A stretch of 50,174 nt of DNA from a virus. The stretch covers positions 64,001-114,174 of the IMG/VR virus record IMGVR_UViG_3300032288_002343; one strand, 5' to 3'. Positions within the stretch are counted from its first letter, which is position 1; the number at the start of each line of letters is the position of its first letter. The position numbers were made by a program, and so were the translations under genes. The notes under the pieces are model-generated. The model saw nothing but the letters and a program-made list of their open reading frames with translations. It made no database searches and was not told the DNA's origin. Positions 3,001 through 43,813 of the stretch are shown piece after piece.

Positions 3001-3476
3001 GTACCTGATGATCCACTAGTTCCACTTGTAGCACTTGTGCCACTAGTTCCAGAAGAACCACTAGCTCCCTGAGCTCCTTGTGCACCAGCTGTACCGCTAG
3101 TACCAGAAGTGCCAGAAGAACCAGATGAACCGCTTGATCCTGAAGTACCACTAGATCCTGACGTACCTGTAGTACCACTAGATCCACTAGTCCCAGAAGT
3201 ACCACTAGAACCACTGGTACCAGCAGTACCTGCTGTTCCAGAGGAACCATCTTCACCAGGCATTCCTGCTAACTGGACTGTCCAACTAGTATATGTACCG
3301 CTTCCTACAGAAACGAATGGTTTAACGGTGAGAGCACCGTTACCACTATTGTAGGAAACCACCTGACCAATAATATAATTATTAGCATCATGGGTTAGTT
3401 GAACAAAGTCACCTATTACAAAGGATAGCCCAGTGTCGGTTGTTATAGAGAGATTGGGATAATTAGGAAAGGGCAT
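1..3476 (-). CDS. Giant collagen-like tail fibre with C-terminal S74-type chaperone domain (3' end outside window)
   Basis: Start chosen at MPFPNYPNL, the first Met after the preceding stop. The frame stays open for 1,158 codons and leaves the window before a stop. Residues 1-75 form a small beta-rich head ending in [14 protein letters not shown], a type common at the base of phage collagen-like fibres. Residues about 76-1020 are Gly-X-Y triplets (GAQ, GPT, GTS, GSS). After residue about 1030 comes a fibre-tip segment, then YYSSDERLK at about 1083 and [16 protein letters not shown]. These match the Peptidase_S74 intramolecular chaperone, which trimerises a fibre and cuts itself off with a Ser/Lys dyad; the Ser in SSDERLK is the expected nucleophile. 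Role inferred: receptor-binding or side fibre. It is the third gene after the 9621-9650 promoter. The missing end prevents judging whether the S74 domain is complete. Confidence 0.88.
420..3252 (-). repeat. Gly-X-Y (collagen-like) repeat tract with regular G-x4-G breaks
   Basis: This part of the fibre gene encodes Gly at every third position, arranged in cassettes of roughly 35-45 residues. A cassette is built from GAQGAQGA or GPTGAQ blocks followed by [10 protein letters not shown]. Cassettes are separated by SGVSITG (promoter-distal to start: nearest the N-terminus), SGATITG (middle) or SGATVTG/SGATVVG (C-terminal), each of which breaks the triplet register. RNGSQGAQ also recurs. The separators change along the tract, as expected from local duplication. 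Confidence 0.88.
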
Positions 3477-9620: not shown

Positions 9621-9650
9621 CAAAATTATTTGTTATTAATGAATTTTCAA
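9621..9650 (-). promoter_or_regulatory. Bacteroidetes-type promoter for the fibre genes
   Basis: On the minus strand, TTG (9650-9648) and TAATTTTG (9628-9621) are separated by 19 nt, matching the Bacteroidetes sigma-A pattern TTG-N19-21-TAnnTTTG exactly. It sits in the 81-nt gap between the 1,559-residue gene and the 131-residue gene. The expected transcription start falls at about the ATG (9615), implying a leaderless or near-leaderless mRNA. It lacks the TAACTAACT element found at the two other promoters; a TATAGCTATA palindrome lies further upstream (about 9678-9687). Confidence 0.65.
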
Positions 9651-9696
9651 TGAGTTACAAACAGATAAACGACATAATATAGCTATAGATAGGATG

Positions 9697-28517: not shown

Positions 28518-28532
28518 AGGATGATCAAGTTA

Positions 28533-28607
28533 CAAATGTAATAGAAAGAATTAAAATTTCCAAGAGAACTAACGAGTTTTGGTAATTCACTATAACTGAG
28601 TTAGTTA
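28533..28607 (-). promoter_or_regulatory. Promoter and upstream element for the cargo/RNA polymerase genes
   Basis: On the minus strand, TTG (28563-28561) and TACATTTG (28540-28533) are 20 nt apart, a textbook Bacteroidetes promoter; the start site should fall near 28527, leaving a leader of about 10 nt before ATG 28517. Further upstream, TAACTAACTCAGTTA (28607-28593) ends exactly 29 nt before TTG. The same element at the same distance precedes the 43654 promoter. Its first three bases are the TAA stop of the preceding gene. Confidence 0.72.
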
Positions 28608-31600
28608 GATATTTTTTAAAGCTCTTACAATTGAGCTATTCAGATTATTCTTTTTGACAGTTTTTCCTTTTTTAGCAGTGGTTTTTGAAGATGTTTGAAC
28701 ACCTGTTCCTTGTTCATAAGACTTATAACCAATTACCTTGTTGTTCTTGTCATACACAGGAACAGCACTTCCAATCTCAGGCAGATTAGGCTGCCACAAA
28801 GGATTCATATTCATAGCTCTGAAGGAAGGATCGTAGCGATAGTTATACATATTCTCCATAATAGCTAAAGTTCTATTCTCTAGTTTATTCTGAGCATATT
28901 TAGAAGCAATAGAATTGAGAGCAGCTTGTGTTGTAGCCTTGGTCTTAGAAAGAGCCATAGCTTGCTTATCTGCTTGACGCTCAAGAGTTTGTAAGTTCTG
29001 GAGCTTAGCCTGATTGAGCAAGTTTCTATTTTCACCATACACTCTTTGCTTCTCAGCCTGGTTCATTCTAAATTGCTCACCTAACACTCGTTGGTTAGCT
29101 TGATATTTCTGAGCATTCAGAGAAGCCAGAGCTGCAGGGTTATATCCCACTTGTCTTTGTGTAGCATTATAGGTAGCTTGATTCTCATTTAGAATATCTT
29201 GTAGAGATATGTCCACAGGTGTACCAAGCTCAGGAATAAACTTCTGAGCATATACAGGCTCCACCTGATTTTGAGAAAGAGCATACATTTCACCAGTCAA
29301 CTGATTAGCATCTAGTTCTTCTATATCAGAAGGTCTTAAGAAAGGAAGAATTCGGTTGAAAGCATCCATCATTAAACTTCTTTTATAAGGATTTACAGTG
29401 ATCTCAGTCATGTCTTTTTTAGTCACCCTCTTACCAGGAGGAAGAACTGCCTCTGTAAGTGTTTTCACATCAGCCACAGTTCCTGCAGTAGTGCCTTTCA
29501 TACCACCATCCAGAGCAGCCATGTATTGCTCAGTTCTTTTTCCAAATATGCTATCTAGGTTCTGGTTAAGGTCACTTACATCAAAACCTTTTCTCTTACC
29601 ATAGCTAGTAACAGGATAACCAGAGAGTACAGATTTAGCATAATCAGGAGCAAGTCTGTGGTATTCCTGTTGGAACCTAAGTACAGCTGGTCCTTTTCCT
29701 TCTTTCTTAGCCTCCTCATAGAGAGACTTTAAATAGTTATAGTTGGTTGGATCAAAACCAGGAAGCCCTGTATCTGATACAGAAGCAAGAGCATCTGGGT
29801 ATTTATTCTTAGCCTCGTTTCTAAACTTATCAGACAGAGCTGTTCCCTTATCAAATCCAAAATGGATGTGAGGACCTGAAGCTCCTGTAGCGCTTTGGGC
29901 AGCAGCATCATATTCATTAATAGCCGTGATGTCATTTTGTAACATATACCTTACAACATCTTGATCATTAAGAATTGCTTCATAAGCTTTATCATTCAAA
30001 CCAGGGAATGTAATGTCCATTGCTTCACCTTTAGCATGTCTAGAGGGATTGCCTTGGTTTGTAGCAGCACCTGGTCTTAGTCCACTTGTAGCATAAACAT
30101 CATAGTTTTTGCTAGCCAGAAGATCAAATAGTCCTTGTATCTTTGGATCAACATTTCTAAGAGCAGCTCTAGCTGACATGCTTTTACCTCTTTGAGCTTT
30201 AGGAATATTAGCTCCCTTCTTAGCTAACACATCTCCTTTGTCTGTAATGTTTAAAAGCTCTTCTTCTTTTGTATCATTGATAGCATTCTGAAGAGAAGCA
30301 GCGTCCATCTTTTTCTTTGCCAAGTCTTTAAGTTTTGCGTTAGCACCTTCCATATTTGCTTGTAGCGTTCCAAGAGCAAGTTTATCAAAAGATGTTTGTA
30401 CATCCAAACTATCAAGCTGTTCTACTGACTTGTCAATCAATTTGTTCTGCTTGTTCTCTTGTTTAGATAAATCAGCTACATAGGTTTTGAACTTCTTACC
30501 CTTAGCTTTAGGATCTGATAACATATCTGCAAATGCGTTTGTGATTTTGATATTACCAAATACAGTGAGATTAGAATCTCCAGTGGTACCATCTTGTAAC
30601 TTTACAGCTGGTTCCCCACGCTCCACTTCTACAGGATTGTTACCATAGGTGATACCAATACCTGTGTTTCCTTTTCCATCAGACTCATCGTGAGATTGTC
30701 CTCTGAACATGATAGTTTCTCCTCCCTCAGGAAGATAAGGATTCTCGGATAGGGTTTCAGCATATCCACCCCAGTGTGTTTTAAGCTCACCACCCATTTG
30801 CATATCTGGTCTTTCTGTAGACATAGCTCTTGCACTAGGAGGAGTGTATTCTTTTAGATGACCGCCAGCTCTTAACATATCAGCATCCTTAGGAGGTGTA
30901 AGAAGGTCTTTCACCTTATGCTCTCCAAAGGTAGTAATCACCTGAGGTTGCCATGTATGACTCATCCATGCATAAGGGGATGTAGTTCCACCATCTTGCA
31001 TAAAACTTCTATTCATATTTTGAATAGCCATTCCTGTAGATTGACCTACAATATTGCTTATGTTCTTATCACGTCTTTCTCCTGCAGCTTCAATCTTTTC
31101 TTGTTTTTGATCTAATGCACCACCAATAAAGCTACCAACAGCTCCTCCTACTAAACCACCAACTGGTCCAAAGAATGCTGTACCAGCTGCTGAACCTATT
31201 CCTTTACCTAGTTTAGATCCACCACTAGGACCTCCTGTAGCATATTCTCCAAGACTACTAGCAAGCTGACCACCACCTTGTTCTCCCATAATATTAGCAA
31301 ACTGTGTTCCCTGCATCCAGTTTTGATTACCAAATTTAGCTTGTGTAAGTTTACCACCTTTCTGGAATGCTTTCATCTTGTTACTATCATTCAGAGGCTC
31401 ATATCCTAAATCTGTGTACATAGTACCAGGATTATAAACATTCATAATCTCTGTAGGATTACCACCAATCATTGCACCATCTTGAGCAAGTACGTTTGTA
31501 CCTACACCATAAGAAGGAAACATTTGCTGGGGTTGCAACACTACATCTTCTGGTCTAACATATTGTCTTCTAGGCTGTTGCATGGGTCTGCTAGCAGCAG

Positions 31601-32195
31601 CTTGAGCAAATACACCTGTAAGTTGTTCTTGTTGTCTAGCTTGTTGTAATGCATCTTTTTCTTCTTTCAACATTTGTATACCCTGAATAATATCACCAGC
31701 TGATTCTATATAAGGTGCAGCATTAAAAGCACCTTTCATAGCTGTAGGTGTAGCACTAGGTGTAATTGTTTTAGCAGGAGAAGTTCCTGCCATTAGTGTT
31801 TCTCTAGTAGGAGTTTGTATTCTAGGCAAACCACCAGTTGGGATACGAGGTGTTCCCTGAAAACCAAATTGAGTATTTGCATATTGCTGGAAACCAGGCT
31901 GTGCTTTTGGAATCTTTTTACCTTTTTTTGCAGGTTCTTGTGTTTGAAGAGCAGCAAGTTGTCTGCGTTCAGCATCAGTCATACCTGTCAAGGAATAATT
32001 GACATCTGAATACATATCAGCAACATTGAGTGGTGTATAAGGAGCTGGAGCAGCATCACTTGTCATATATGCGCCAATCTGAGCTTTTTTAAAAGCCTTA
32101 CCATGTTTAGCCATAAATGCTTCTTCTGTAGGAAACTTCTTGTAGAATTCCTTTTCAGACTTAACACCAGCAATTTTGAGCATCTCTTTTTTCAT
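28605..32195 (-). CDS. Cargo/structural protein with M15-type peptidoglycan peptidase domain (1,196 aa)
   Basis: Residues about 670-800 hold a peptidase M15 (VanY/L-Ala-D-Glu type) signature: YATSGLRPG, then SRHAKGEAMDITF near 717-729 and GPHIHFG near 774-780. These supply the two His and one Asp that bind zinc and the final catalytic/zinc His-x-His. The likely role is local cutting of peptidoglycan at infection. A Gly-zipper-like hydrophobic stretch (FFGPVGGLVGGAVGSFIGGA, about 340-360) could insert in a membrane. The N-terminal 640 residues are low in order and contain repeated Gln-x-Gly motifs (KAQIGAY, KAQPGF, AQDGAMIGG, MQDGGTT, KAQRGKS). The C-terminal part is Gln/Asn-rich and helical. 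The gene begins one base after the stop of the 569-residue gene. Confidence 0.8.
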   Translation of the reverse strand: MKKEMLKIAGVKSEKEFYKKFPTEEAFMAKHGKAFKKAQIGAYMTSDAAPAPYTPLNVADMYSDVNYSLTGMTDAERRQLAALQTQEPAKKGKKIPKAQPGFQQYANTQFGFQGTPRIPTGGLPRIQTPTRETLMAGTSPAKTITPSATPTAMKGAFNAAPYIESAGDIIQGIQMLKEEKDALQQARQQEQLTGVFAQAAASRPMQQPRRQYVRPEDVVLQPQQMFPSYGVGTNVLAQDGAMIGGNPTEIMNVYNPGTMYTDLGYEPLNDSNKMKAFQKGGKLTQAKFGNQNWMQGTQFANIMGEQGGGQLASSLGEYATGGPSGGSKLGKGIGSAAGTAFFGPVGGLVGGAVGSFIGGALDQKQEKIEAAGERRDKNISNIVGQSTGMAIQNMNRSFMQDGGTTSPYAWMSHTWQPQVITTFGEHKVKDLLTPPKDADMLRAGGHLKEYTPPSARAMSTERPDMQMGGELKTHWGGYAETLSENPYLPEGGETIMFRGQSHDESDGKGNTGIGITYGNNPVEVERGEPAVKLQDGTTGDSNLTVFGNIKITNAFADMLSDPKAKGKKFKTYVADLSKQENKQNKLIDKSVEQLDSLDVQTSFDKLALGTLQANMEGANAKLKDLAKKKMDAASLQNAINDTKEEELLNITDKGDVLAKKGANIPKAQRGKSMSARAALRNVDPKIQGLFDLLASKNYDVYATSGLRPGAATNQGNPSRHAKGEAMDITFPGLNDKAYEAILNDQDVVRYMLQNDITAINEYDAAAQSATGASGPHIHFGFDKGTALSDKFRNEAKNKYPDALASVSDTGLPGFDPTNYNYLKSLYEEAKKEGKGPAVLRFQQEYHRLAPDYAKSVLSGYPVTSYGKRKGFDVSDLNQNLDSIFGKRTEQYMAALDGGMKGTTAGTVADVKTLTEAVLPPGKRVTKKDMTEITVNPYKRSLMMDAFNRILPFLRPSDIEELDANQLTGEMYALSQNQVEPVYAQKFIPELGTPVDISLQDILNENQATYNATQRQVGYNPAALASLNAQKYQANQRVLGEQFRMNQAEKQRVYGENRNLLNQAKLQNLQTLERQADKQAMALSKTKATTQAALNSIASKYAQNKLENRTLAIMENMYNYRYDPSFRAMNMNPLWQPNLPEIGSAVPVYDKNNKVIGYKSYEQGTGVQTSSKTTAKKGKTVKKNNLNSSIVRALKNI

Positions 32196-32196
32196 G

Positions 32197-33906
32197 TTAT
32201 TGGTATTTATCTAACCATCCACCCTTGGTTGGTTTGTTATAGTTTGTAAAGTTAAGCAATTGGTCTAGCTTTTCAATAGGTTGAGCATCAGCATTATTGA
32301 CACTAACACCACCTCTAGCTACAGGATATTCTGTAACATACTCCCCATCAAATTCATAATCCTCTCCAGGCTCCATATATTGTACATCTCCTGTATCAGA
32401 GATTCCAATTAGTGGTTCATACACACCCTCCATAGTGATTTCATTAGATGGGATGGTTACAGGCTTTCCCCAATTCTCAGGATTCCAATAGCCCATAGGA
32501 TCTACATTACCACCATCTTGGTAGTTACCTGTAGCACTTGCCCAGTTATCACCCTCTTGATATGTAGCTCCTCTTATACCTTCTGCAAAAGCTTTGAGAG
32601 CAGATTTAGTGGGGAAGTACATAGTCTTTTGTTCATTGTACTTTCCTGTAGGACTAGTAAAACTGAATTTAGTTGGGGTGTCAGGATTGTATTCATTTAG
32701 CTTTGGAAAGCTAGGAACTCCTGGTTTAGGAAGATTGAATCCTAAATTTCTTGTTTCTCTTGAGATAGGAATAGGTCTTTCTAGCTTAGGCTCCTCCTGA
32801 AGGATTACAGGTTGTACTGGTTTTTTATATCCATGTAAGTTACTAATTGTACCAATTGTAAAGACTTTATTATAGAAATCTTTTGGTAATGGTATTTCTC
32901 TATTATCATTTGTTTTTATAAAATTAGATATACCATCGTTATCAGTATCGCCATCTCCAGGATAATAAAACCCTTGTGAACTAACTGGTTGTATTTTTTG
33001 ATTAGGTGTAAATGCATTATTATCTTTCCAGGTTTTTAAATTAAGTTGTTTAGTATATTTATCATAAGCTTGTTTACCTAACATATATTTATTATACAAA
33101 CTTAAACTATCCTGATAAGCCTTAAGTCTAGGATCATTAGGATCAGAGACAGTGATGAGTTCTCTCTTATTAGGATTACGAGCAAATAAACCATGTCTAC
33201 GAGGATCACTTTCAGGATAGTTATATGGAGGTTTTGCTTTTATATTTTTCTCGTTGTAAATTTTATCACCATCTTGACTAATAGTCTTAGGTTTGAAATC
33301 CAAGCCTGCTTGGTAGTATTTCATCTCCTGTCCATTCTGAGACTTAGGAACATATTTGAAAAACTTACCAGAACTATCAATTATATTCTTACTCCTAAAG
33401 TCTGCAGCCTCAGGACTATTGTACCAATCAAGTTCTAGCTGTAGGGTTGGATGTCCTTTTGCCTTCAGGAACTGTCCAGTTTGGTTATCCACTGTAGGTA
33501 GGTGACCAGTTTTATCTGGAGTGTAACCCAGTTCCCAAGCTCTTTTAAGATTGTAATCAGGAGTTTCTTTTAGGTTGTATTGCTTCTTCCATTGGTTATA
33601 AGACAACTTTTTACCATCCTGTGCACTAGCCTTAGTCTTCTTAGCATAAGGACCATTGCTAGGAGCAGGGTTGATTGTACGTGCATACATCATTCCTGTA
33701 GCACCAGGGAGAGATCCTCCCATTGCAAACTGTCCACCCCATGCAGGACTGTAGTTGCGTCCTTTGGTGTTGTATGCCAGTCCCTTGAACCCTGGAGGAA
33801 ATGATACATCAGGATTGTTTGGGTTGGCTTTCTTCCCATAGTTATCCTTGGTCTTTTGTTTTAAGACCAATCCTCCTTGTTCATATTTATCTAACCAATT
33901 AGCCAT
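32197..33906 (-). CDS. crAss-like virion protein with terminal WLDKY motifs (569 aa)
   Basis: The start codon overlaps the previous stop (TAATG), so translation is coupled. WLDKYEQGG is at residues 4-12 and GGWLDKYQ forms the last residues, so the same short motif brackets the protein. It is Gly-, Asn-, Pro- and Tyr-rich with little predicted hydrophobic core and contains Gln-x-Gly motifs like the next gene (SAQDGKK, KSQNGQE, YQDGGNV). GDGDTDNDGISNF near residue 320 resembles a thrombospondin-type-3 calcium loop. No enzyme signature is visible. WLDKY-GG motifs recur in large Bacteroidetes phage virion proteins, so an internal/cargo or tail-barrel role is likely, inferred from context. Confidence 0.6.
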   Translation of the reverse strand: MANWLDKYEQGGLVLKQKTKDNYGKKANPNNPDVSFPPGFKGLAYNTKGRNYSPAWGGQFAMGGSLPGATGMMYARTINPAPSNGPYAKKTKASAQDGKKLSYNQWKKQYNLKETPDYNLKRAWELGYTPDKTGHLPTVDNQTGQFLKAKGHPTLQLELDWYNSPEAADFRSKNIIDSSGKFFKYVPKSQNGQEMKYYQAGLDFKPKTISQDGDKIYNEKNIKAKPPYNYPESDPRRHGLFARNPNKRELITVSDPNDPRLKAYQDSLSLYNKYMLGKQAYDKYTKQLNLKTWKDNNAFTPNQKIQPVSSQGFYYPGDGDTDNDGISNFIKTNDNREIPLPKDFYNKVFTIGTISNLHGYKKPVQPVILQEEPKLERPIPISRETRNLGFNLPKPGVPSFPKLNEYNPDTPTKFSFTSPTGKYNEQKTMYFPTKSALKAFAEGIRGATYQEGDNWASATGNYQDGGNVDPMGYWNPENWGKPVTIPSNEITMEGVYEPLIGISDTGDVQYMEPGEDYEFDGEYVTEYPVARGGVSVNNADAQPIEKLDQLLNFTNYNKPTKGGWLDKYQ

Positions 33907-34772
33907 TATTTGTAAGAGATTTGAGATGGTGTAGTGATAAATTGGCTTACCAGATGCACATCAGACTTGTTATCAAGGATATGTCTCACCTTCAAGTCTT
34001 TAGCTCTTAGAGGTTCCTTCTTGAAGGATCTCTTGCCATAGTCCATATTAGCTTGGTTCACCACCTTATCCAAAGATAATGATTCACAAGTGGTTAAGAA
34101 TAGTGGTAGAGACTTACTTCTTACCAATGACCAGAATGTATTATACTGGTAGAAGTTATCACTCTTTGTATACGTAATAGTCTTACTATCAATGTTATAC
34201 AAAGGATACTTCATGTACTCCTTTAGATTATTAATAGGTTTTGGAACTAACTTAAGTATACCAGATGATTGTTGACCATTGTACAACACTGCCTTATTAA
34301 ACCACTCATTATCAACTTCTATCTTATCATTATCATTAAACACTCCATATCCATCACGGAAGTATTTATACGCCTTTGTATAGTCCTTAACACTCTGAAG
34401 AATCTCATCGTAATAAGAATATGCAAATGGATATTCAATGATATAAGGCTCTATATTTCCATAGAACTTGTTATAATTTACTACATCTGTCAAGTGTCTC
34501 CATGCACAGGAGCTATATGAAGGAGTGAATATAGCTGTCACTTGTTCATTAGGAGTGACAGTAGATATAGGAAAGTTAATTGTTTTCTTACACTGTCCTA
34601 AACTTTCAATGAGAATTACTGTAGCATCATCATCTACAGAATAACTTATACCACTAACAAGTACACTCAAGGGCACATTAGTTCCTAGTACATTCCCAAG
34701 ATTGTCAGAAATGTTGAAAGGACCACTCTTAGGAGAGGCTTTAGTGAGCTTTATGTATACTATTTGTGCCAT
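33906..34772 (-). CDS. Conserved crAss-like virion protein with N-terminal GPFN beta domain (288 aa)
   Basis: Residues about 15-75 form a beta domain (SGPFNISDNLGNVLG ... LSVLVSGISYSVDDDATVILIES ... C ... INFPI). It lines up with the N-terminal domain of the 205-residue protein at 43814-44431. The rest (about 90-288) is Tyr- and Lys-rich, mixed alpha/beta, and matches no enzyme family I recognise. It sits between the hub/stabilisation gene (20 nt upstream) and the cargo genes (overlapping stop/start downstream), which suggests a tail component. Specific function unknown. Confidence 0.5.
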   Translation of the reverse strand: MAQIVYIKLTKASPKSGPFNISDNLGNVLGTNVPLSVLVSGISYSVDDDATVILIESLGQCKKTINFPISTVTPNEQVTAIFTPSYSSCAWRHLTDVVNYNKFYGNIEPYIIEYPFAYSYYDEILQSVKDYTKAYKYFRDGYGVFNDNDKIEVDNEWFNKAVLYNGQQSSGILKLVPKPINNLKEYMKYPLYNIDSKTITYTKSDNFYQYNTFWSLVRSKSLPLFLTTCESLSLDKVVNQANMDYGKRSFKKEPLRAKDLKVRHILDNKSDVHLVSQFITTPSQISYK

Positions 34773-34792
34773 TCATTTAGTCAGTTTAATCA

Positions 34793-37700
34793 TTAACATA
34801 CCTCTTCTGAAGTTCCACTTATTTGACAATCATACACCGTAGTGGTACTGGTAGTTGTCGTACAGCAATTTCCTGTATTTGTAATTGTAGAAAGCACTGG
34901 TGGCAATAGGAAACTAGTTCCATAGTTTGGAGCATCATTGATAAAATAAACTATATATGGGTAGCTTTCATTAAAACTTACACTTGTACAAAAATCATTA
35001 GGTAATGATCCTGCTGTTGAGTATGTTTTAACTACTACAGTTGTACCATCAGAACAATCTATATAATTAATATATACAGTGTTATTTAAATAAATTGTAT
35101 TTCCAGTTGCATTATCCAAGTCACTCTGTGATATATCAACATCATAATAGAAACAATCACATAAAGTTGTGGTAGTGGTTGTTGTTGTACTACTTGTAGT
35201 AGTTGTTGTAGTGGTGACATCTTCACACGCAACCCCATCTAAACCACAGTCATATATAGTGGTTGTGGTTGTAGTGGTGGTGGTAACAACCTCATATGCA
35301 AATCCAGCTAACTCACAACAATTTTCAACAGCTTCTCCTTCTATATCACAGTTAGGTTGATAGTACGTAGTGGTTGTAGTTGTAGTGATACAATTATCAC
35401 TTATCAATGTTGCTGAAAGTCCTTTCTCACCAACATTTATTTGATCTCCACAAACACATACTTCTTGAGTGGTTCCACCATCAATTAGAACACTGAATTG
35501 TGGAACACCATTGCAATCTGTATAATCGTACGTTAATGTTTCAGAAGATTGATTCTCAACAGAATATGTCTTACAATCACATACAAATTGTGTTGTTGTA
35601 GTGGTTGTTGTGTTAGGAACAGGATTAGCTACAATAGCCTCAAAATCTCCACAACAGTCATTCAGTCCAGAATAGAAGAAGTTATTCTCAGCTATATACC
35701 AGTTAGGAATATAGCTATGGAAGCTCACCCAACTTCTGGTGTTTACATTAAATGATAATGTCCAACTCTTGTTACAGAAGTATTCTAGATCTGTTAGATA
35801 CACTTGTTTTCTAATAACCTCTGTACTACCACAGCACTCTACCTCTTCCTCTAGATAGAAGTTGAAGTCTGCTTCATCATATATAATGTTCTTAACCTTA
35901 GGAATGTAGTCAAGCTTTGTAATGATGACACGGTCAAACTTACTATCATATACACCATGTAGACCCAGTCCCTTAAAATGGTTATCAATAGGAACATTAG
36001 GGAAGTAGCGCAGGATTTCAAATGCCAGGTGATCTGTAAAGAACCTATTCATTCCTGATCCAAATGCACTTAAATCCTGAGCCCCATTACCAGTAATAAG
36101 GAATACTTGTCCACGTTTAGCATCTACACTTATCTGTCCTTGAGGTATCTTAAGGAGCATTTTATTCTGAGAACCTACATATCCTAGGTCAGTTTCTGCA
36201 AAGTCTACAGGAGGTGAGCTCCTGAATAGACTGTCATTACCCATGTAGGCAGCCTTAGGATTGCTTGTGTCAATTGTGAGCAATGTATTATACATCAAGC
36301 TCTTGTTCTCAAAACGAGCAAGAATAGCTTTATTCTGTATACCATCTAAGCTTACTAAAGGACCGTAGTTCTGTGGGAAGTCAAAATAGGATAGTGCTCT
36401 ATATGTCAACCAGTTATTCGATTGGTTGTCAGCACTTGCATCTTGAGCATCTGAGTAGATGGCTCTAAAAGGATAAAATGTAAAGCACTCTTTCTTCCAG
36501 TCATAAGGAAGGTGAGTGAAGGTGTTCTCTCTATTTTGCTTTGAGAAGGTAGTATTATAGTAGTAGGTATTATCGTTTGCTATAGAAACATAATCTTCCT
36601 GTACCCAGTCATCAGGAATACCTGTGCTCACATGAGGCCAGAAGTCTCCAGCTCTATTATCATAAGCCTGACGAAGGTCTATGTTGTAAGAACTCTCACA
36701 ATAGAAATATGGGATTCCATAAGCAAACAGATACATCTTTCCATCATAGAAAGTTCTACCATTGCTTGTAATAGGAGTTTGACTATTAGGACAATCTAGA
36801 TTAGTAGCCTTGATTGAGAAGAAGTTTGTTAATACAGCAGTTTCAATGGACGCATCTATAAGAATAGAACGTGCTGAATGCCAGTATTGTGGATAGGCTA
36901 CATTACCTATTTCATCGTAGAAAATGTCACTATCATCAGCAGCATTTACACGATTATCTATAAAGAAAGGAAGTTTGGTCTTGAAGGCAAACTTACTGAT
37001 AAATGTATCTCCTCCAAAGAATGTAGCTAAGACAGGAGTGGTTATAGGAGTGATATCTCTTTGGAATCCTGTATCCACTGTATCATAAGAATATATTTGT
37101 CCATATTGGTTAACAAATATGTTCTTTAATGATCCATAATAAGACACAACACTTATGTAATCTTCTCTTCCAGGAACATCACACTTGTTAGCTTCTGAAA
37201 GAGTCATTCTTGACTTATCTGTAACTATTCCATTAACAGCTGGTGTATCACTTGGGAATGGTAAAGGATCTTTTGCCTCATCTGTCTTTAAGTAAACAGA
37301 ACTCTCTCTGCTCCAGTTGTTTACATTTTTATCATCACCCACTCCTTGTACACCAGGAATAAGATAGAGTTTGATATCAAGCTCACGTTGTTTAATTCCT
37401 AGTCCGTTGTTAATTACATTACTATAATCATAACTAGCTATAGAGTTATAGGAATATGCATAGTTACGTCTGGTGATACCGTTTATGTATATTGTTAAGT
37501 AGGCTTGGTAAGCAGCAAATAATGCAGATGCATTATATGGAGAAGTAATCACTGCTATCTGATTAGCACTATTTAATGCATCCTGTTGAGCTTGAAGGCT
37601 TACTAGTCTGTACATTGCATTCTTCTGCACTTGTACAAAGTGAGAACTACCAGCACCAAATATAACGTTCTCTAGTTTTAAGATGTTTCCTAAGAAAGGT

Positions 37701-40186
37701 TGACCAAATGATGTTTCAGGAGAATTGAATACATGTCTGTATTTAGATCCATTCTCATCAAATCCATTAAGATTGTCAGGAGCACATAGTCCATATCCAA
37801 CACCATCTATTAATTCAATACTATACCCACCATCACCATCTTTATAAACAGGAGGATTTAAAGATGGTATGATTCTAGTAGTACCACCAGCTGCAGATGA
37901 ATCAAGTGTCCAAGTTGTTTTTTCTAGAGCTTTTTGAGGAGTGTTGCAACACCCATTACTTGGATTAAGAGCACAATATTCAGCCCAATTAGCTCCAGAA
38001 GGAGGAGGAATTATATTTGTATCAAGTCCATTAAATGCACATCCTCCACCTGCTGGGAGAGGGGGATAGTACCAGAACTCAGTTAGATCAGGAACAGCTA
38101 CTGTAAGCTTATACCAATTGTATGTATTAGATATAATTGATCCATCTGCTCCACCACCAAACTCTGGAGATGGAAAATCTAAAGCACATAGATTAAAAGA
38201 TGTGTTTAGAGGAAAGTCACCACCAATTGTTTTTGTAACACTTTCTCCAGAATAACAGTCGATATAACTTATAGTACCAGCACTTATTGCATATACAGTG
38301 AACTGTCTACAAATAGAACTTGTACTACTTTGAGCAAGTTTGATTGTGTAAGCATTGCTATTTTCTAGAAGGAATGGATCTTTTCTTAGGTCGTTGTAAG
38401 GATAGTTGGGGAAGTAGTATTCTGTTTCCTCTCTTTTATACTTACCTACGTTTCTAAGAATACCCTTAGCTACGACAGATTTGTTTGTACTTCTGTCACC
38501 ACGTATAATCTTGAATCCAACTATCTCACGTTTTTGTTCAGCTGTAAGACTTGAGGAGTTAATAAGTGTCTGTACCTGTGTAACATCAATTCTCACTCCT
38601 AAAGGAAACACTGCATCCTTTTGCATCACCATGCTATTAGCACCAGTGAATAGAGCAGATTCAAATATAGGACTCACTAGAACATCTGGGAACTTGTGAT
38701 GTCTAATCTTTTGACCAGCTAGGTCTCCCCATAACTCTCTGTCACAAGGATATTCCTCAACAGACTCCCAATAAGAGAATTGACCATATTGATAAGGTCC
38801 TTTGTAATCTGTAGCAGGAGAGTAATCTGGAGAAAATCCTGTAACAGTTGCTGTGTTATATATCTTCCAATAGGGACTAGTTCCTGCAATAGGATCTTCA
38901 GGTTCACCTATGAAGTCATCATTTGTTGTAGAAACAGGGAATAGATCATTAGCATTAGCTATTCTTCCTGGAATGTGGAATCCATCAGTTTGCTTACCGT
39001 TCTGAAGGAGGAATACTAATTCAAATGCATACACTTCATCCCTTAGATAACCTCTAAGGTTGGTAGCATTCAGTTCATCTGAATAGTTCTCTGTAGCAGG
39101 AATACGATAGGTTTCCCATTCAAGAGTAATTTGACTTGCAATCTGTTGATAATTAAGTCTTTCTACAGATGTAAGCTGATCCCATACTAATACATCACGT
39201 ACAGCTGTAACATCTTGAGCAGCCCCATAGTAAGGATACTTTTCAAAGATGTCATCCACTGTTAAACGGATATCAGTTTTACTTTGACCAGTGTAAGTAA
39301 TTACCTGTGAATCTCCGTCAATAAAGTAAACACCTACTAACTCTACAGAGGTGATACCATTTATAGTTTTGATTACAGCTAGGTTGAAATGTTGAAAGAG
39401 TCCTGTCAAATCTAAGTTGCTAACAGTGATTTCAATAGACCTACCTACATTATAATTAAAATTAGGAGTGGTAAGACTTATATCAGCAATAGGAGTGGGG
39501 TTAGTAACTGAGTAGTAGGAAGTGTAAGGACTACCAATAACGTCTGTATATTGAATAGCAAATTGGTAAGTGCCTGCTGTTAAATCACCTCCTGAAGTGA
39601 TGTTAGTCACTTCAAGATGAGGAATCTGAAAGTTTGGTTGTACGTTTAGTCCGTTACAATCAATCTCATCACTATAAACAGGATCACAGGCTGGTGTTCC
39701 TCCTATAAGAACATAGGGGAGATTCTCAGGATTGAGGTCAATATATCTTCTATTATTAAGACCATCTGTCCAATATACCTCTGTAGCACAATTAGTAATT
39801 CTGTGGACAGACTTATGAATAGGATAATTGATATTGAAGTTGAGACAAGGGGCATTAATATACTTGCGATAGATACAATCATTGTTATCCATGTACCCAA
39901 TCTCAGAACCCCCATTTACAGGATCAGTAAGAAAGAATACATGTTTACTCTTCTCAGGGATGAAATGCTGACCTATCAGTACATATCCATCAGGGAATGT
40001 AAGACAAAGCTCATTTCCTGGCTCATTCTGATAGTTTACAGAATTAGCATCAAAGTTTTCTAAAGCAGCGTTAAGTGCATACGTAAGCTGGCCTTTGGGA
40101 ATCTGTTGAACAGATTGATCCATGTTAAGACCAACGGTAGCATTATTATACTCCTGTCTAATATTACCTTGTTCCTGTTCAGCCAT
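34793..40186 (-). CDS. Very large tail hub/stabilisation protein with Thr-linked C-terminal modules (1,797 aa)
   Basis: Residues 1-160 (GLNMDQSVQQIPKGQLTYAL, NYQNEPGNELCL, GYVLIGQHFIPE, HRITNCATEVYWTDGLNNR) match the start of the crAss-like tail stabilisation/hub protein. That family is distantly related to P22-type tail needle/hub factors and is built of beta-propeller-like repeats. The core runs to about 1520. One Cys/Tyr/Asp-Cys module is inserted at about 622-670. The last 270 residues are a string of small Cys-rich units joined by poly-Thr linkers (starting near 1527, 1600, 1639, 1664 and 1780), including two further copies of the same module. These are probably exposed appendages. Located between the ring protein and cargo genes, it should form the wide tail barrel. 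The family call is by recognition of the N-terminal pattern. Confidence 0.72.
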   Translation of the reverse strand: MAEQEQGNIRQEYNNATVGLNMDQSVQQIPKGQLTYALNAALENFDANSVNYQNEPGNELCLTFPDGYVLIGQHFIPEKSKHVFFLTDPVNGGSEIGYMDNNDCIYRKYINAPCLNFNINYPIHKSVHRITNCATEVYWTDGLNNRRYIDLNPENLPYVLIGGTPACDPVYSDEIDCNGLNVQPNFQIPHLEVTNITSGGDLTAGTYQFAIQYTDVIGSPYTSYYSVTNPTPIADISLTTPNFNYNVGRSIEITVSNLDLTGLFQHFNLAVIKTINGITSVELVGVYFIDGDSQVITYTGQSKTDIRLTVDDIFEKYPYYGAAQDVTAVRDVLVWDQLTSVERLNYQQIASQITLEWETYRIPATENYSDELNATNLRGYLRDEVYAFELVFLLQNGKQTDGFHIPGRIANANDLFPVSTTNDDFIGEPEDPIAGTSPYWKIYNTATVTGFSPDYSPATDYKGPYQYGQFSYWESVEEYPCDRELWGDLAGQKIRHHKFPDVLVSPIFESALFTGANSMVMQKDAVFPLGVRIDVTQVQTLINSSSLTAEQKREIVGFKIIRGDRSTNKSVVAKGILRNVGKYKREETEYYFPNYPYNDLRKDPFLLENSNAYTIKLAQSSTSSICRQFTVYAISAGTISYIDCYSGESVTKTIGGDFPLNTSFNLCALDFPSPEFGGGADGSIISNTYNWYKLTVAVPDLTEFWYYPPLPAGGGCAFNGLDTNIIPPPSGANWAEYCALNPSNGCCNTPQKALEKTTWTLDSSAAGGTTRIIPSLNPPVYKDGDGGYSIELIDGVGYGLCAPDNLNGFDENGSKYRHVFNSPETSFGQPFLGNILKLENVIFGAGSSHFVQVQKNAMYRLVSLQAQQDALNSANQIAVITSPYNASALFAAYQAYLTIYINGITRRNYAYSYNSIASYDYSNVINNGLGIKQRELDIKLYLIPGVQGVGDDKNVNNWSRESSVYLKTDEAKDPLPFPSDTPAVNGIVTDKSRMTLSEANKCDVPGREDYISVVSYYGSLKNIFVNQYGQIYSYDTVDTGFQRDITPITTPVLATFFGGDTFISKFAFKTKLPFFIDNRVNAADDSDIFYDEIGNVAYPQYWHSARSILIDASIETAVLTNFFSIKATNLDCPNSQTPITSNGRTFYDGKMYLFAYGIPYFYCESSYNIDLRQAYDNRAGDFWPHVSTGIPDDWVQEDYVSIANDNTYYYNTTFSKQNRENTFTHLPYDWKKECFTFYPFRAIYSDAQDASADNQSNNWLTYRALSYFDFPQNYGPLVSLDGIQNKAILARFENKSLMYNTLLTIDTSNPKAAYMGNDSLFRSSPPVDFAETDLGYVGSQNKMLLKIPQGQISVDAKRGQVFLITGNGAQDLSAFGSGMNRFFTDHLAFEILRYFPNVPIDNHFKGLGLHGVYDSKFDRVIITKLDYIPKVKNIIYDEADFNFYLEEEVECCGSTEVIRKQVYLTDLEYFCNKSWTLSFNVNTRSWVSFHSYIPNWYIAENNFFYSGLNDCCGDFEAIVANPVPNTTTTTTTQFVCDCKTYSVENQSSETLTYDYTDCNGVPQFSVLIDGGTTQEVCVCGDQINVGEKGLSATLISDNCITTTTTTTYYQPNCDIEGEAVENCCELAGFAYEVVTTTTTTTTTIYDCGLDGVACEDVTTTTTTTSSTTTTTTTTLCDCFYYDVDISQSDLDNATGNTIYLNNTVYINYIDCSDGTTVVVKTYSTAGSLPNDFCTSVSFNESYPYIVYFINDAPNYGTSFLLPPVLSTITNTGNCCTTTTSTTTVYDCQISGTSEEVC
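34830..35610 (-). repeat. Poly-threonine linkers joining small Cys-rich modules
   Basis: Five runs of 6-9 Thr (one Ser-split run longer) at about 35600, 35385, 35275, 35170-35220 and 34840. All are written in mixed ACA/ACT/ACC codons. They separate domains rich in paired Cys and Tyr. Similar Thr runs occur in the 205-residue protein (about 44190) and at the C-terminus of the 390-residue protein (about 46905-46960). The low-complexity tracts are prone to copy-number change. Confidence 0.8.
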
Positions 40187-40191
40187 TGGTA

Positions 40192-41163
40192 TTAATTATT
40201 ACGTCTCCAACCATATCTATTGCTACGATTGGGAAGTTCATACATGTTAAATCTATTCAAGTCATTCTTAATTCTACGTTGCTTAGTCCAAGGATCTTGC
40301 TTCTTAATCTCAATATCAGCCATGATAAATGCCTCATCAGCCTGTTGCTTGTAGAACGCAAGCTTTGTCTGAAGCTGATTAAATGTCTCATCATTAGTCT
40401 GATTAGTAAGAGTTTCTATCACCTTATATTTGATAAAAGCTTCAATAAACTCTCTAATACGATAATTATCAGGAATTAATTGATTTCCACCATTATCATA
40501 TTCTGTAGCATAGAATAAGAGATGCACCACACCATTACGGAAGTTAGTTACAAACTTATTATCTCTAATATCAAATGAGTCATAACTAGCAGATCCAGGA
40601 GTAAACTCATTAATAGGAGGAGCTTCTTGATAGAATTCCCAATTACTAGTATAATCTACACCACAATTACCTTGTGCGGAGATATTACCAGGCTTGAGAA
40701 GATATTCCTTTCGATAGAGTACAGGGGCTTGGTTGTTTGTCTTATAGACAGCCTGTACTAGATTAGGCATACATTTAGGACAGAACTCCTGACCACAACT
40801 ACCTTCCTCACAAGGATTACCATACACAATTACAGGACTCACCTGAATTGTTGTAGAGCTAGCAGCCTGTGAGTAGAAAGAGTTAGCCTGTTGATAAGGA
40901 TAACCATTTACAGCTGTACAAAGCCATGCTTCACGAACAGCATAAAAGTTATCTGGGAGTCTTGCCTCATAGTCACAAATGTGTAGGATTTCTTGAGAAA
41001 TCACATAAGTGGTTCTACCCAGCTTCCTAAGACATTTATCCAGGTAAGTGGGGAACATTAAGTCATCAACAGCTCCTGTATCAAAATAACTTTTGAACTC
41101 TTCTTTAACGATAGAATATACAGGTTCTGGGCTGACGAAGTTATATTTATAATAGTATGACAT
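40192..41163 (-). CDS. Neck/ring (tail tubular A-like) protein (323 aa)
   Basis: The N-terminal region has DKCLRKLGRTTYVI and YEARLPDNFYAVREAW. This resembles the connector family represented by P22 gp4 and T7 gp11, where a helical bundle is followed by a conserved LP-x-F/D turn. A Cys cluster (CEEGSCGQEFCPKC, about 118-131) may bind zinc. The C-terminal 100 residues are helical with a basic tail (RRIKNDLNRF ... NRYGWRRNN). It lies 5 nt after the IHF-like gene and 5 nt before the hub gene. Assignment as a portal-proximal ring protein is by weak motif plus position. Confidence 0.5.
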   Translation of the reverse strand: MSYYYKYNFVSPEPVYSIVKEEFKSYFDTGAVDDLMFPTYLDKCLRKLGRTTYVISQEILHICDYEARLPDNFYAVREAWLCTAVNGYPYQQANSFYSQAASSTTIQVSPVIVYGNPCEEGSCGQEFCPKCMPNLVQAVYKTNNQAPVLYRKEYLLKPGNISAQGNCGVDYTSNWEFYQEAPPINEFTPGSASYDSFDIRDNKFVTNFRNGVVHLLFYATEYDNGGNQLIPDNYRIREFIEAFIKYKVIETLTNQTNDETFNQLQTKLAFYKQQADEAFIMADIEIKKQDPWTKQRRIKNDLNRFNMYELPNRSNRYGWRRNN

Positions 41164-41168
41164 CTATT

Positions 41169-41645
41169 TTACTTTTTCCATTCGTGATAGAGATGTTGGT
41201 ATTTGTCGTTAGCTCTTAAATAGTGAGAAAGCAGTCTAGAGGTAGTTCTGGAAGGTTTAAAGTACCACAGGTTTGATTGTCTAAATCTAGCTGTTGTTTT
41301 GAACCACATCCATCCAAAGAAAAAACCTTCTGTGTGAAAATTGAAGTTGTAGATACGTTTACCTTTTTCCCTAGTCTTTTTCCAGTCAATAGGAAGATTG
41401 ACAAACTCTTTACCATCAATTCCTTTTATCTTTCTACGCTTCTTCTTGTTAATAGAAAATTCACCAAACCCAAAAGGAAGCTTTGCTCTTTCTCCTGTTT
41501 CAAGAATATACTCTTTGAAACCTTCATTAAAGGAATAGATAATATTTCTCCACTGATCAAATGTTAATTTGATAGAGGGATGCTTCTTGCAGAAACTGTT
41601 GTAGTTATCTTTACTAGCGCTTCGCCAGTCTATTTTCATTCTCAT
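41169..41645 (-). CDS. IHF/HU-like DNA-binding protein of crAss-like phages (158 aa)
   Basis: LETGERAKLPFGFGEFSINKKKRRK (residues 50-74) resembles the turn into the beta arm of HU/IHF, where a Gly-Glu-x-(V/A)-x-L-x-GFG-x-F pattern is followed by basic residues. Downstream are aromatic, basic stretches (FNFHTEGFFFGWMWFKTTAR) and a basic C-terminus. crAss-like genomes carry IHF-like genes among their structural genes, which fits this position. The previous gene ends TGACATGAG, so the start MRMKID lies one base after that stop. Likely role: binding or bending phage DNA in or at the virion neck. An alternative is a structural neck protein with only superficial HU likeness. Confidence 0.5.
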   Translation of the reverse strand: MRMKIDWRSASKDNYNSFCKKHPSIKLTFDQWRNIIYSFNEGFKEYILETGERAKLPFGFGEFSINKKKRRKIKGIDGKEFVNLPIDWKKTREKGKRIYNFNFHTEGFFFGWMWFKTTARFRQSNLWYFKPSRTTSRLLSHYLRANDKYQHLYHEWKK

Positions 41646-41646
41646 G

Positions 41647-42375
41647 TCATCTCAAGTTTGGAGCGTTTGGTGCTTGACCATCAACTCCATCACTTGTGAT
41701 GTCTGTCTTCAATGCAAAATACGTAGAGAGAAGCTTTTGAGAAGTGAGCTCTAACACTTGCTTTTCCAGATATCCTGGAACTGGAGATTCCTTATCTAAA
41801 GGATTTATACACAGTTGTTCTGTAGTGTATTCAGGAGTTCCACATCCACACTCTGGATACATGATTTCGTTTGGAACATTTTCTTCAAAAAGAGCAACTA
41901 GTCTGATTGCTTTTAAGAGTGGATTGTTCACATACAAATACCCATTAGAAATCCAGTAGTATTCTTCCTTCTTAATGATAGGAAGCTTGAGCAAGTTTAC
42001 GTATCGGTTGATGGTTATTTCCTTAAGTTTCTTTCCCTGCCCACTCATAGCATTGATAGAATATACTCCCTGAATAACATACTGGTAATTACCTTCTGTA
42101 ATTCTAGGAAGTTTAAACTTTGTTCTTGCTACACTGCAAGGATCAACGTAATCACAGCATTCTGAAATAGGAACTTCTACCATCTCTAAACAAGGGATGG
42201 TAGTAAAAACTGTATCGGTTGCCCATAGCTTCCTCAGATTAGTCTCACGCTTTATCAGGAGGAAGGCATTGTTCTTAATTTCAGACATGACAGCTCTATC
42301 CGTGATCAAGTTGTCCGTGGAGAGCAACTTGTGCATAGAGCGTACATCTGAAACTAACTTCCTAAAAGTTGACAT
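41647..42375 (-). CDS. Putative neck/tail virion protein (242 aa)
   Basis: No family recognised with confidence. The N-terminal 60 residues are helical and basic (RKLVSDVRSMHKLL, NNAFLLIKRETNLRKLW). The middle is beta-rich with a CCDYVDPCS cluster and the C-terminal part has CGCGTPEY and a helical KQVLELTSQKLLSTYFAL segment. The start overlaps the preceding stop by one base (TAATG). Position between the phosphoesterase and the IHF-like gene, upstream of ring and hub genes, suggests a head-tail connector or chaperone. That is inference only. Confidence 0.45.
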   Translation of the reverse strand: MSTFRKLVSDVRSMHKLLSTDNLITDRAVMSEIKNNAFLLIKRETNLRKLWATDTVFTTIPCLEMVEVPISECCDYVDPCSVARTKFKLPRITEGNYQYVIQGVYSINAMSGQGKKLKEITINRYVNLLKLPIIKKEEYYWISNGYLYVNNPLLKAIRLVALFEENVPNEIMYPECGCGTPEYTTEQLCINPLDKESPVPGYLEKQVLELTSQKLLSTYFALKTDITSDGVDGQAPNAPNLR

Positions 42376-43625
42376 TATAAATACTGTTTGAATATATTTG
42401 TTATTCCGTCTTCAAAATCTATCAGGAATCCAGTCACTTCACCTTTAGTGACAGTATACCCATTCTTATCATCCCATCCACTTTTTGCTGTGGAGAATGC
42501 TGGAAGCTGATAGAATTTAATACCATTGAAATCTAGACTCATCTCATGATGTTTATCTCCTGTAAATATGTAGAAGTTATCATGATCTGACCACTCGCTC
42601 TTAAATTCCATAGGGAATAAACCAGCGAGTTTTGCTGGCTTTAAGGCATCTCCATGGTTGAACATCATTGCAGATGTTCCATAGCTAACATACTTTCTAT
42701 ATCTTGGAGAGATGTCAAAGAACACACGCTCCTCGTTTCTAAAGTAGGTTTGCAACCAGCTAGCCAAATGCCAGCCTACAAACTCATCGTGATTACCAGC
42801 TACAAATATTACACTAATCGATTCACCCTTCTGAAGGAGAAGATTAATGACGCTTACCTCATGATCACAGATTGCTTGAAAAGCCTCGTGATAGGAGAGG
42901 ATATTTTGCTGGGGAGTACCCTTTGTAGTTGTGTTAGTGAACTCACTATTGAACTCATCAGAACCAATAATATAGTTGATATCTGTGAGATTGTTAGCTA
43001 AAGAGGCTTGATTTAGGATGATTTCCACTCTTTGGATAAAATCACCAAAGCGTTCTTCTATATCATTCTTTCCTCCAATATCTAGTTTGTTTAGATGAGA
43101 ATCCTGTTTATTTATAATTAAACAAGCATCCTTCTTAGATCTATCAAACTTTGGAGCTACTATCTCAGGGGAGCAAGGCTCATAGTTCTCAAGGAAGGCA
43201 ACAAAGCTATCCTGGAACACTTGCTCATTTTTCTTTTTACCTAACCATGCTTTCACTTGATAGTGAGGCTGGTCAGCATTTCCCCAGTAGTTTTGGACGT
43301 ATTTAGTTATCTCCCACTTGTCCGTATCTATCTTACATTTCTCAATCAACTCATCCAAACTCTTGATTTCTTCTTTAGAGTTGAATACCACTTCACCTGT
43401 TCCCTTCTGAATATCCTCAAAGAATCTTACCACTTGATCCTCTAGTTCTCCAATATAGTTACCAACCTCCGCTTCTTCCTGTGCCACTTGTGAGCCTCGC
43501 AGCTCCTTTATCAATTCATCCACCTCATTTTCTGTAATGTTGAGTTTGTCTGCATAGAACTTCTTGCTCTTTTTCCAGTGAAGCATCTGCTCCAACTGTT
43601 GCAGAAGGGATTGATTTTCAGGCAT
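42375..43625 (-). CDS. Calcineurin-like metallophosphoesterase with N-terminal helix-turn-helix (416 aa)
   Basis: The metal-binding series of calcineurin-like phosphoesterases is present in order: KQDSHLNK (about 172-179), GSDEFNSE (about 220), GNHDE (about 275), NHGDAL (about 325) and GDKHHE (about 355). The last departs from the usual GHxH but keeps His-His. Residues 12-43 (WKKSKKFYADKLNITENEVDELIKEL) form a helix-turn-helix-like segment. A phosphodiesterase or nuclease role in DNA processing is plausible; substrate unknown. It is the first gene of the tail operon, 29 nt downstream of a strong promoter, with a leader of about 20 nt. Being first places a catalytic protein before purely structural genes. 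Confidence 0.8.
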   Translation of the reverse strand: MPENQSLLQQLEQMLHWKKSKKFYADKLNITENEVDELIKELRGSQVAQEEAEVGNYIGELEDQVVRFFEDIQKGTGEVVFNSKEEIKSLDELIEKCKIDTDKWEITKYVQNYWGNADQPHYQVKAWLGKKKNEQVFQDSFVAFLENYEPCSPEIVAPKFDRSKKDACLIINKQDSHLNKLDIGGKNDIEERFGDFIQRVEIILNQASLANNLTDINYIIGSDEFNSEFTNTTTKGTPQQNILSYHEAFQAICDHEVSVINLLLQKGESISVIFVAGNHDEFVGWHLASWLQTYFRNEERVFFDISPRYRKYVSYGTSAMMFNHGDALKPAKLAGLFPMEFKSEWSDHDNFYIFTGDKHHEMSLDFNGIKFYQLPAFSTAKSGWDDKNGYTVTKGEVTGFLIDFEDGITNIFKQYL

Positions 43626-43653
43626 TTACGTTTTGATTTAGTTAAAATTGCCA

Positions 43654-43729
43654 TAAAGGTACGAAAGTTTTTTGATATTTTCCAAATTATTTTAACCAAC
43701 CTCATTATTGATACTAACCAAGTTAGTTA
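43654..43729 (-). promoter_or_regulatory. Promoter and upstream element for the tail/cargo operon
   Basis: Minus strand: TTG (43685-43683) and TACCTTTA (43661-43654), 21 nt apart; the -7 box differs from TAnnTTTG only at its last base. TAACTAACTTGGTTA (43729-43715) ends 29 nt before TTG, exactly as at the 28533 promoter, and the -33 boxes share TTGGAAA. ACTAAC-TTG-GTTAGT within it is a perfect inverted repeat. The element directly follows the T-tract of the upstream terminator. Confidence 0.72.
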
Positions 43730-43734
43730 TAAAA

Positions 43735-43766
43735 TAAAAACTCCCTAGGGTAGAAACCCCAGGGAG
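43735..43766 (-). terminator. Rho-independent terminator after the 205-aa gene
   Basis: Minus-strand reading: CTCCCTGGGG, loop TTTCTA, CCCTAGGGAG, then TTTTTATTTT. The near-perfect 10-bp GC-rich stem with an immediate T-tract ends the 205-residue gene's transcript and separates it from the next promoter. Confidence 0.88.
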
Positions 43767-43813
43767 AAGCCCTGAAAACCAACAAACAGAGCTTTTTGAT
43801 ATATTTATCAAAT

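Follow-up and report, generated by a model that had tools for sequence, protein, structure and literature searches.

Paired palindromic boxes upstream of three late promoters of a crAss-like phage and a candidate winged-helix activator

Introduction

The P2 Ogr system uses the host polymerase. The late promoters of P2 carry a TGT-N12-ACA element and are activated by Ogr, a small phage protein (PMC3931495). In the crAss-like phages crAss001 and phi14:2, a giant virion polymerase serves the early genes and the late genes are attributed to the host polymerase (PMC8375218, PMC10136315). No late cis element or phage factor for the early-to-late switch of crAss-like phages is described in the literature searched, these two papers included; that search left out most subscription papers, so the novelty of the element reported here is provisional.

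Here we describe paired boxes at three late promoters of a phage genome. The elements are real and conserved, they look functional, and we predict them to be sites for a phage activator. The arrangement resembles P2 in that a palindromic element recurs upstream of a few late operons and a small phage protein is the candidate activator. It differs in the element, which is TGT-N12-ACA in P2, whereas here each promoter has two 15-bp TAAC-N7-GTTA boxes and a Bacteroidota-type core. The proteins differ as well: Ogr is a zinc Cys4 protein (CX2CX22CX4C), whereas the candidate is a winged helix with a single conserved Cys. T4 MotA is likewise a phage activator that works with the host RNA polymerase, and its activation domain is the top, albeit weak, PDB fold match of the candidate. 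However, the MotA box replaces the –35 element, whereas here the –33 TTG is kept, the boxes are centred near –49 to –86, and no MotA box was seen. MotA also has two domains, with a C-terminal DNA-binding domain, whereas the candidate has one. The paired boxes are absent from crAss001 and phi14:2, and tblastn gave no credible counterpart of the winged-helix protein in either.

Results

Source and type of phage

The window is the whole stretch of DNA analyzed, 50,174 nucleotides, and corresponds to G000:64001-114174, where G000 denotes the complete 114,174-bp record IMGVR_UViG_3300032288_002343. Positions are those of the window unless prefixed by G000. By its gene content, the G000 virus is classed as crAss-like (Crassvirales in the wide sense). 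This assignment follows from a crAss-type tail ring protein (Pfam CrAss_Ring_2, E 2.6e-18), a P22-type portal (P22_portal, 3e-15), an HU/IHF-like protein (Bac_DNA_binding, 1.5e-7) encoded directly after the winged-helix gene, and a giant protein of 3781 aa that contains a DFDID motif. From DFDID, which we take to be a polymerase motif, this giant protein probably forms the catalytic part of the virion RNA polymerase. An IHF gene in the structural block is a signature of crAss-like phages (PMC7886860). Leptolyngbya phage Lbo-JY46 (PP438436.1; loci L180 and L185), listed with a cyanobacterial host, encodes proteins related to the cargo and exonuclease proteins, and the ring protein is also matched by a Leptolyngbya phage record. 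The features of the locus are listed in Table 1.

Table 1 Features of the boxed tail and cargo promoters, their operons, and the candidate regulator
Feature	Position	Strand	Basis and remarks
Tail promoter, terminator-like hairpin CTCCCT...AGGGAG + T-run	43732..43772 (limits approximate)	-	sequence; directly upstream of boxes
Tail promoter, distal box TAACTAACTTGGTTA	43715..43729	-	sequence; matched in 79/80 related loci
Tail promoter, proximal box TAATGAGGTTGGTTA	43693..43707	-	blind paired-box scan; spacer 7 nt; TTG 7 nt on
Tail promoter, –33 element TTG (TTGGAAA)	43683..43685	-	sequence; TTGG near-invariant among relatives
Tail promoter, –7 element TACCTTTA	43654..43661	-	sequence; sigma-A consensus; predicted +1 near 43649
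Tail operon gene 1, DNA-repair-exonuclease-like protein, 416 aa	42375..43625	-	phrog_704, E 8.6e-49
Tail operon gene 2, crAss-type tail ring protein 2	41647..42375	-	Pfam CrAss_Ring_2, E 2.6e-18
Cargo promoter, distal box TAACTAACTCAGTTA	28593..28607	-	sequence; kept in 26/29 related loci
Cargo promoter, proximal box TACCAAAACTCGTTA	28570..28584	-	blind paired-box scan; spacer 8 nt; TTG 6 nt on
Cargo promoter, –33 element TTG (TTGGAAA)	28561..28563	-	sequence; CTCTTGG kept in relatives
Cargo promoter, –7 element TACATTTG	28533..28540	-	sequence; sigma-A consensus; predicted +1 near 28528
Cargo operon gene 1, probable virion protein, 929 aa	25728..28517	-	distant relative of phi17:2 structural protein
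Giant protein with DFDID motif, 3781 aa	14378..25723	-	motif scan
Winged-helix protein, 115 aa, first gene of structural block	G000:10028-9684	-	weak Pfam matches

Two boxes at each promoter

An earlier note on this DNA reported a 15-bp element upstream of the tail and the cargo operons, each followed by TTGGAAA and a –7 box. Both elements and both core promoters are read from the sequence where the note placed them. The note treated the element as single and had thus missed a second box, a third promoter, and the two-box architecture with its 22-24 bp spacing. Each 15-bp element is paired: it is the distal of two TAAC-N7-GTTA palindromes, with the consensus TAACYAASTTRGTTA. Upstream regions were aligned at 80 loci with an orthologue of the first tail-operon gene and at 29 loci with one of the first cargo-operon gene, and both alignments have the layout TAAC-N7-GTTA, 7-8 nt of spacer, TAAC-N7-GTTA again, 6-7 nt, and TTGG. 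The two boxes lie 22-24 bp apart, about two helical turns. In the tail alignment, 79 of the 80 loci, representing 28 distinct sequences, gave an information content of 1.88 bits per base for the half-sites, compared to 0.81 for the inner N7 and 0.75 for the spacer. The distal box served to pick the rows; conservation at the proximal box, whose half-sites are kept in the 28 distinct sequences, is therefore independent of the selection. The eightieth locus, L022 (upstream of position 3001), keeps both boxes and is missing the –33 and –7 elements; the boxes therefore run almost into the start codon, which suggests a deletion or an assembly fault. The cargo distal box shares bases with the stop codon of the preceding gene, and the proximal cargo box can alternatively be read as TTAC-N8-GTTA. 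The terminator-like hairpin of the tail promoter is also present in relatives.

Exact matches to the pattern TAACTAACTNNGTTA number three in G000 (two of them in the window) versus none in 40 Markov-shuffled genomes. With three mismatches allowed there is no excess over chance (33 found versus 30 expected), and thus only near-exact copies are informative. A fourth box at G000:38933 was rejected: it encodes the peptide ITKLVK, G007 and G009 do not have it, and no second box lies at a suitable distance. Reading the boxes as RNA hairpins is not favoured, because the stems would be only 4 bp and AT-rich and lie upstream of the predicted start.

Core promoters and helical phasing

A third pair is found beyond the window, ahead of a collagen-like fibre gene (promoter site G000:50536(-), predicted start near G000:50539); its copy of the 15-bp element is at G000:50594-50608(-). 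The –7 consensus of Bacteroidota sigma-A promoters is TAnnTTTG at –12 to –5 (PMC9723704). The –7 boxes are TACATTTG at the cargo promoter, TATATTTG at the fibre promoter, and TACCTTTA at the tail promoter, where the last base differs from the consensus; the distance from TTG to the –7 box is 19-21 nt at all three. By these matches the three core promoters are assigned to the Bacteroidota sigma-A type. With the –7 box set at –12 to –5, the box centres fall at about –51/–73 (tail), –49/–72 (cargo), and –62/–86 (fibre), so that successive positions differ by steps of roughly 11 bp. The fibre pair is 11-13 bp further from its –7 box than the other two pairs, about one helical turn. The 29-nt distance to TTG that had been proposed as fixed is exact at the tail (TTG at 43685) and cargo (28563) promoters and, given this geometry, belongs to those two. 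Box centres at such upstream positions are typical of activators, and boxes that leave the core promoter free are in a typically activator-like position. The earlier note also placed a regulator on a consistent helical face. The conservation footprint, the three-promoter pattern, and the upstream position give this good support; that the regulator activates rather than represses, and when it acts, is what we infer.

Distribution across genomes

Twelve genomes were scanned blindly for paired half-sites, scored out of 16. G000 contains approximately 77 matches to TTG-N18-22-TAnnTTT; three have a pair scoring 15 within 90 nt upstream, and the others score 12 or less. Exactly three promoter-like sites carry a pair in each of six near-complete genomes, where the scores are bimodal (14-16 versus 12 or less) and the proximal box lies 7 (tail), 6 (cargo), or 20 nt (fibre) from TTG. 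The near-complete close relatives have the same three orthologous sites, scoring 14-16. Among five shuffled genomes, a single palindromic site reached 15 or more by chance. G011 keeps the tail and cargo pairs, and G012 has a fibre-type pair only. Six more distant genomes (G019-G024) were added: the full set of three promoters, with unchanged geometry, is present in G020, G021, and G024, and G019, G022, and G023 have one or two boxed promoters with some half-sites TAAT/ATTA. In Lbo-JY46, crAss001, phi14:2, Fpv1, and phi17:2, no pair scoring 14 or more was found upstream of promoter-like sites. In named phages the spacing-7 pattern matched at chance level only, and no site reached 15 or 16 in a wider scan.

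The inner sequence changes in parallel at promoters tens of kilobases apart. The distal tail and distal fibre boxes are both TAACTAAAAAAGTTA in G020, G021, and G024, and in the window phage's close relatives the inner sequence is mostly of the AASTT type at both. Such matching shifts at unlinked promoters are consistent with one trans-acting protein that serves them all. Both tail boxes have the same altered inner sequence (e.g. AGAAAAT twice) in loci L037, L058-L061, L065-L067, and L077. Strict covariation of the boxes with the recognition helix was considered and is only suggestive: in the AAAAT clade (G006, G013), the inner sequence of the tail boxes has changed and the cargo boxes are still of the older type.

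A candidate winged-helix regulator

Among the early genes that were scanned, none is a clear transcription factor. The 115-aa protein that opens the structural block has weak Pfam matches to many winged-helix families. Its AF2 model has an HHHH-EE arrangement, four helices and a wing (pLDDT 77, pTM 0.72). The top PDB fold match is the T4 MotA activation domain (1bja; E 6e-3, 26% identity, rmsd 2.4 over 78 columns), a weak match that MarR, CRP, and Fur-type proteins nearly equal. A fold search of a viral library placed a MotA homologue third and an uncharacterised phi17:2 protein sixth (weak), and a PDB sequence search with the profile returned nothing significant. The protein is 114-115 aa long and single-domain with one conserved Cys; cysteines were examined in this candidate alone.

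The protein was found in at least 192 viral contigs and is 56-89% identical in relatives that include its region. Identity is 66-69% in G020, G021, and G024, and genomes down to 61% keep one or two boxed promoters. Box-bearing genomes that cover the region also carry the gene, a co-occurrence that is not independent evidence because they all belong to one lineage. The protein was not detected in G013, a 47-kb fragment, and tblastn found no credible homologue in the five named phages. A scan of a genome collection returned one contig, L346 (DHFP01000064.1), binned to a Clostridiales MAG and probably a misplaced phage contig.

The promoter of the winged-helix gene itself has no box in the window phage. 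In one subclade, however, TAACTAAAATWGTTA stands one nucleotide before the –33 TTG of this promoter. Exact half-sites are present in 8 of 56 distinct upstream regions (11 with half-site variants), and the G020 copy has the same sequence as the proximal fibre box. When the gene of a factor carries such a box itself, this usually points to autoregulation. Although a correlation, the own-gene box is the best single link between the boxes and the winged-helix protein. Upstream of the gene (G000 approximately 10.20-10.27 kb, minus strand) is also a conserved G-run, GGGGYGGWGGGTGGG, which could form a G-quadruplex; a sigma-A-like promoter, TTGGA...TAACTTTG, runs into it.

Unboxed late promoters carry a second element

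No box pair was found at the late-strand promoter-like sites near window 9650 and G000:10074, 62830, and 47419; the paired box is therefore not a general late switch. The earlier note was correct that the fibre promoter at 9621 lacks the 15-bp element. A different conserved element, CATAATATAGC, is present there instead, with sites at window 9673-9683 (+ strand reading), G000:10105(-), and G000:53802(+) that are orthologous in most close relatives. Two or three copies occur per genome in most genomes examined. The element lies 31 nt before TTG of the winged-helix gene promoter, a distance fixed in 11 genomes; it also precedes the promoter of a glycosyltransferase gene near 53.86 kb and is inverted ahead of the 9650 fibre promoter.

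Discussion

Our preferred reading, with a probability of roughly 0.6, is that a phage-encoded dimeric protein, likeliest the 115-aa winged helix, binds the paired boxes and recruits or activates the host polymerase at three late operons. Each 15-bp TAAC-N7-GTTA palindrome would fit one homodimer, and the two-box operator would sit upstream of an otherwise ordinary Bacteroidota sigma-A promoter (TTG ... TAnnTTTG). A DNA-binding phage protein made earlier in infection would occupy both boxes, and the bound protein would recruit or activate the host sigma-A RNA polymerase at the tail operon, the cargo/virion-polymerase operon, and the collagen-like fibre gene. We place the product of G000:10028-9684(-) first among the possible binders.

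The activator may instead be another phage protein, such as an uncharacterised early protein or the adjacent HU-like protein. Many conserved small early proteins belong to no family, early genes of unknown function could encode the binder, and the HU/IHF-like gene directly follows the winged-helix gene. We consider this unlikely, however, since the winged-helix protein has an HTH fold and, in a subclade, the promoter of its gene carries a box, and 15-bp palindromes are not usually read by HU/IHF proteins. The tandem palindromes would also suit repressor operators that keep the three late operons off until the repressor is removed. Such operators are typical of repressors, and the subclade box abuts the –33 element of the winged-helix gene, which is a repressing position. 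At the late promoters, though, the boxes end 6-20 nt short of the –33 element, on its upstream side, and leave the core promoter free, and repression requires no strict spacing to the core promoter; this makes repression at the late operons quite improbable.

Very improbable, finally, is that the boxes are sites for a transcription factor of the host. Phages do borrow host regulators, and the core promoters here belong to the host sigma-A type, but the box sequence changes in step at two promoters between phage clades, and crAss001, phi14:2, Fpv1, and phi17:2, which all infect Bacteroidota, lack the boxes. We put at slightly under even odds a tentative extension of the phage-activator reading to a two-tier circuit, in which a promoter marked by CATAATATAGC would drive an undescribed winged-helix activator that in turn acts on the paired boxes at three late promoters, plus its own promoter in the subclade.

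Three defined promoters, an operator, and a candidate protein make this late switch testable with cloned parts, and phage culture is not needed. They offer a route to testing how abundant crAss-like phages start their late genes with the host RNA polymerase. If the two-tier circuit is true, the activator would control the virion RNA polymerase that is packaged for the next infection in this environmental crAss-like lineage.
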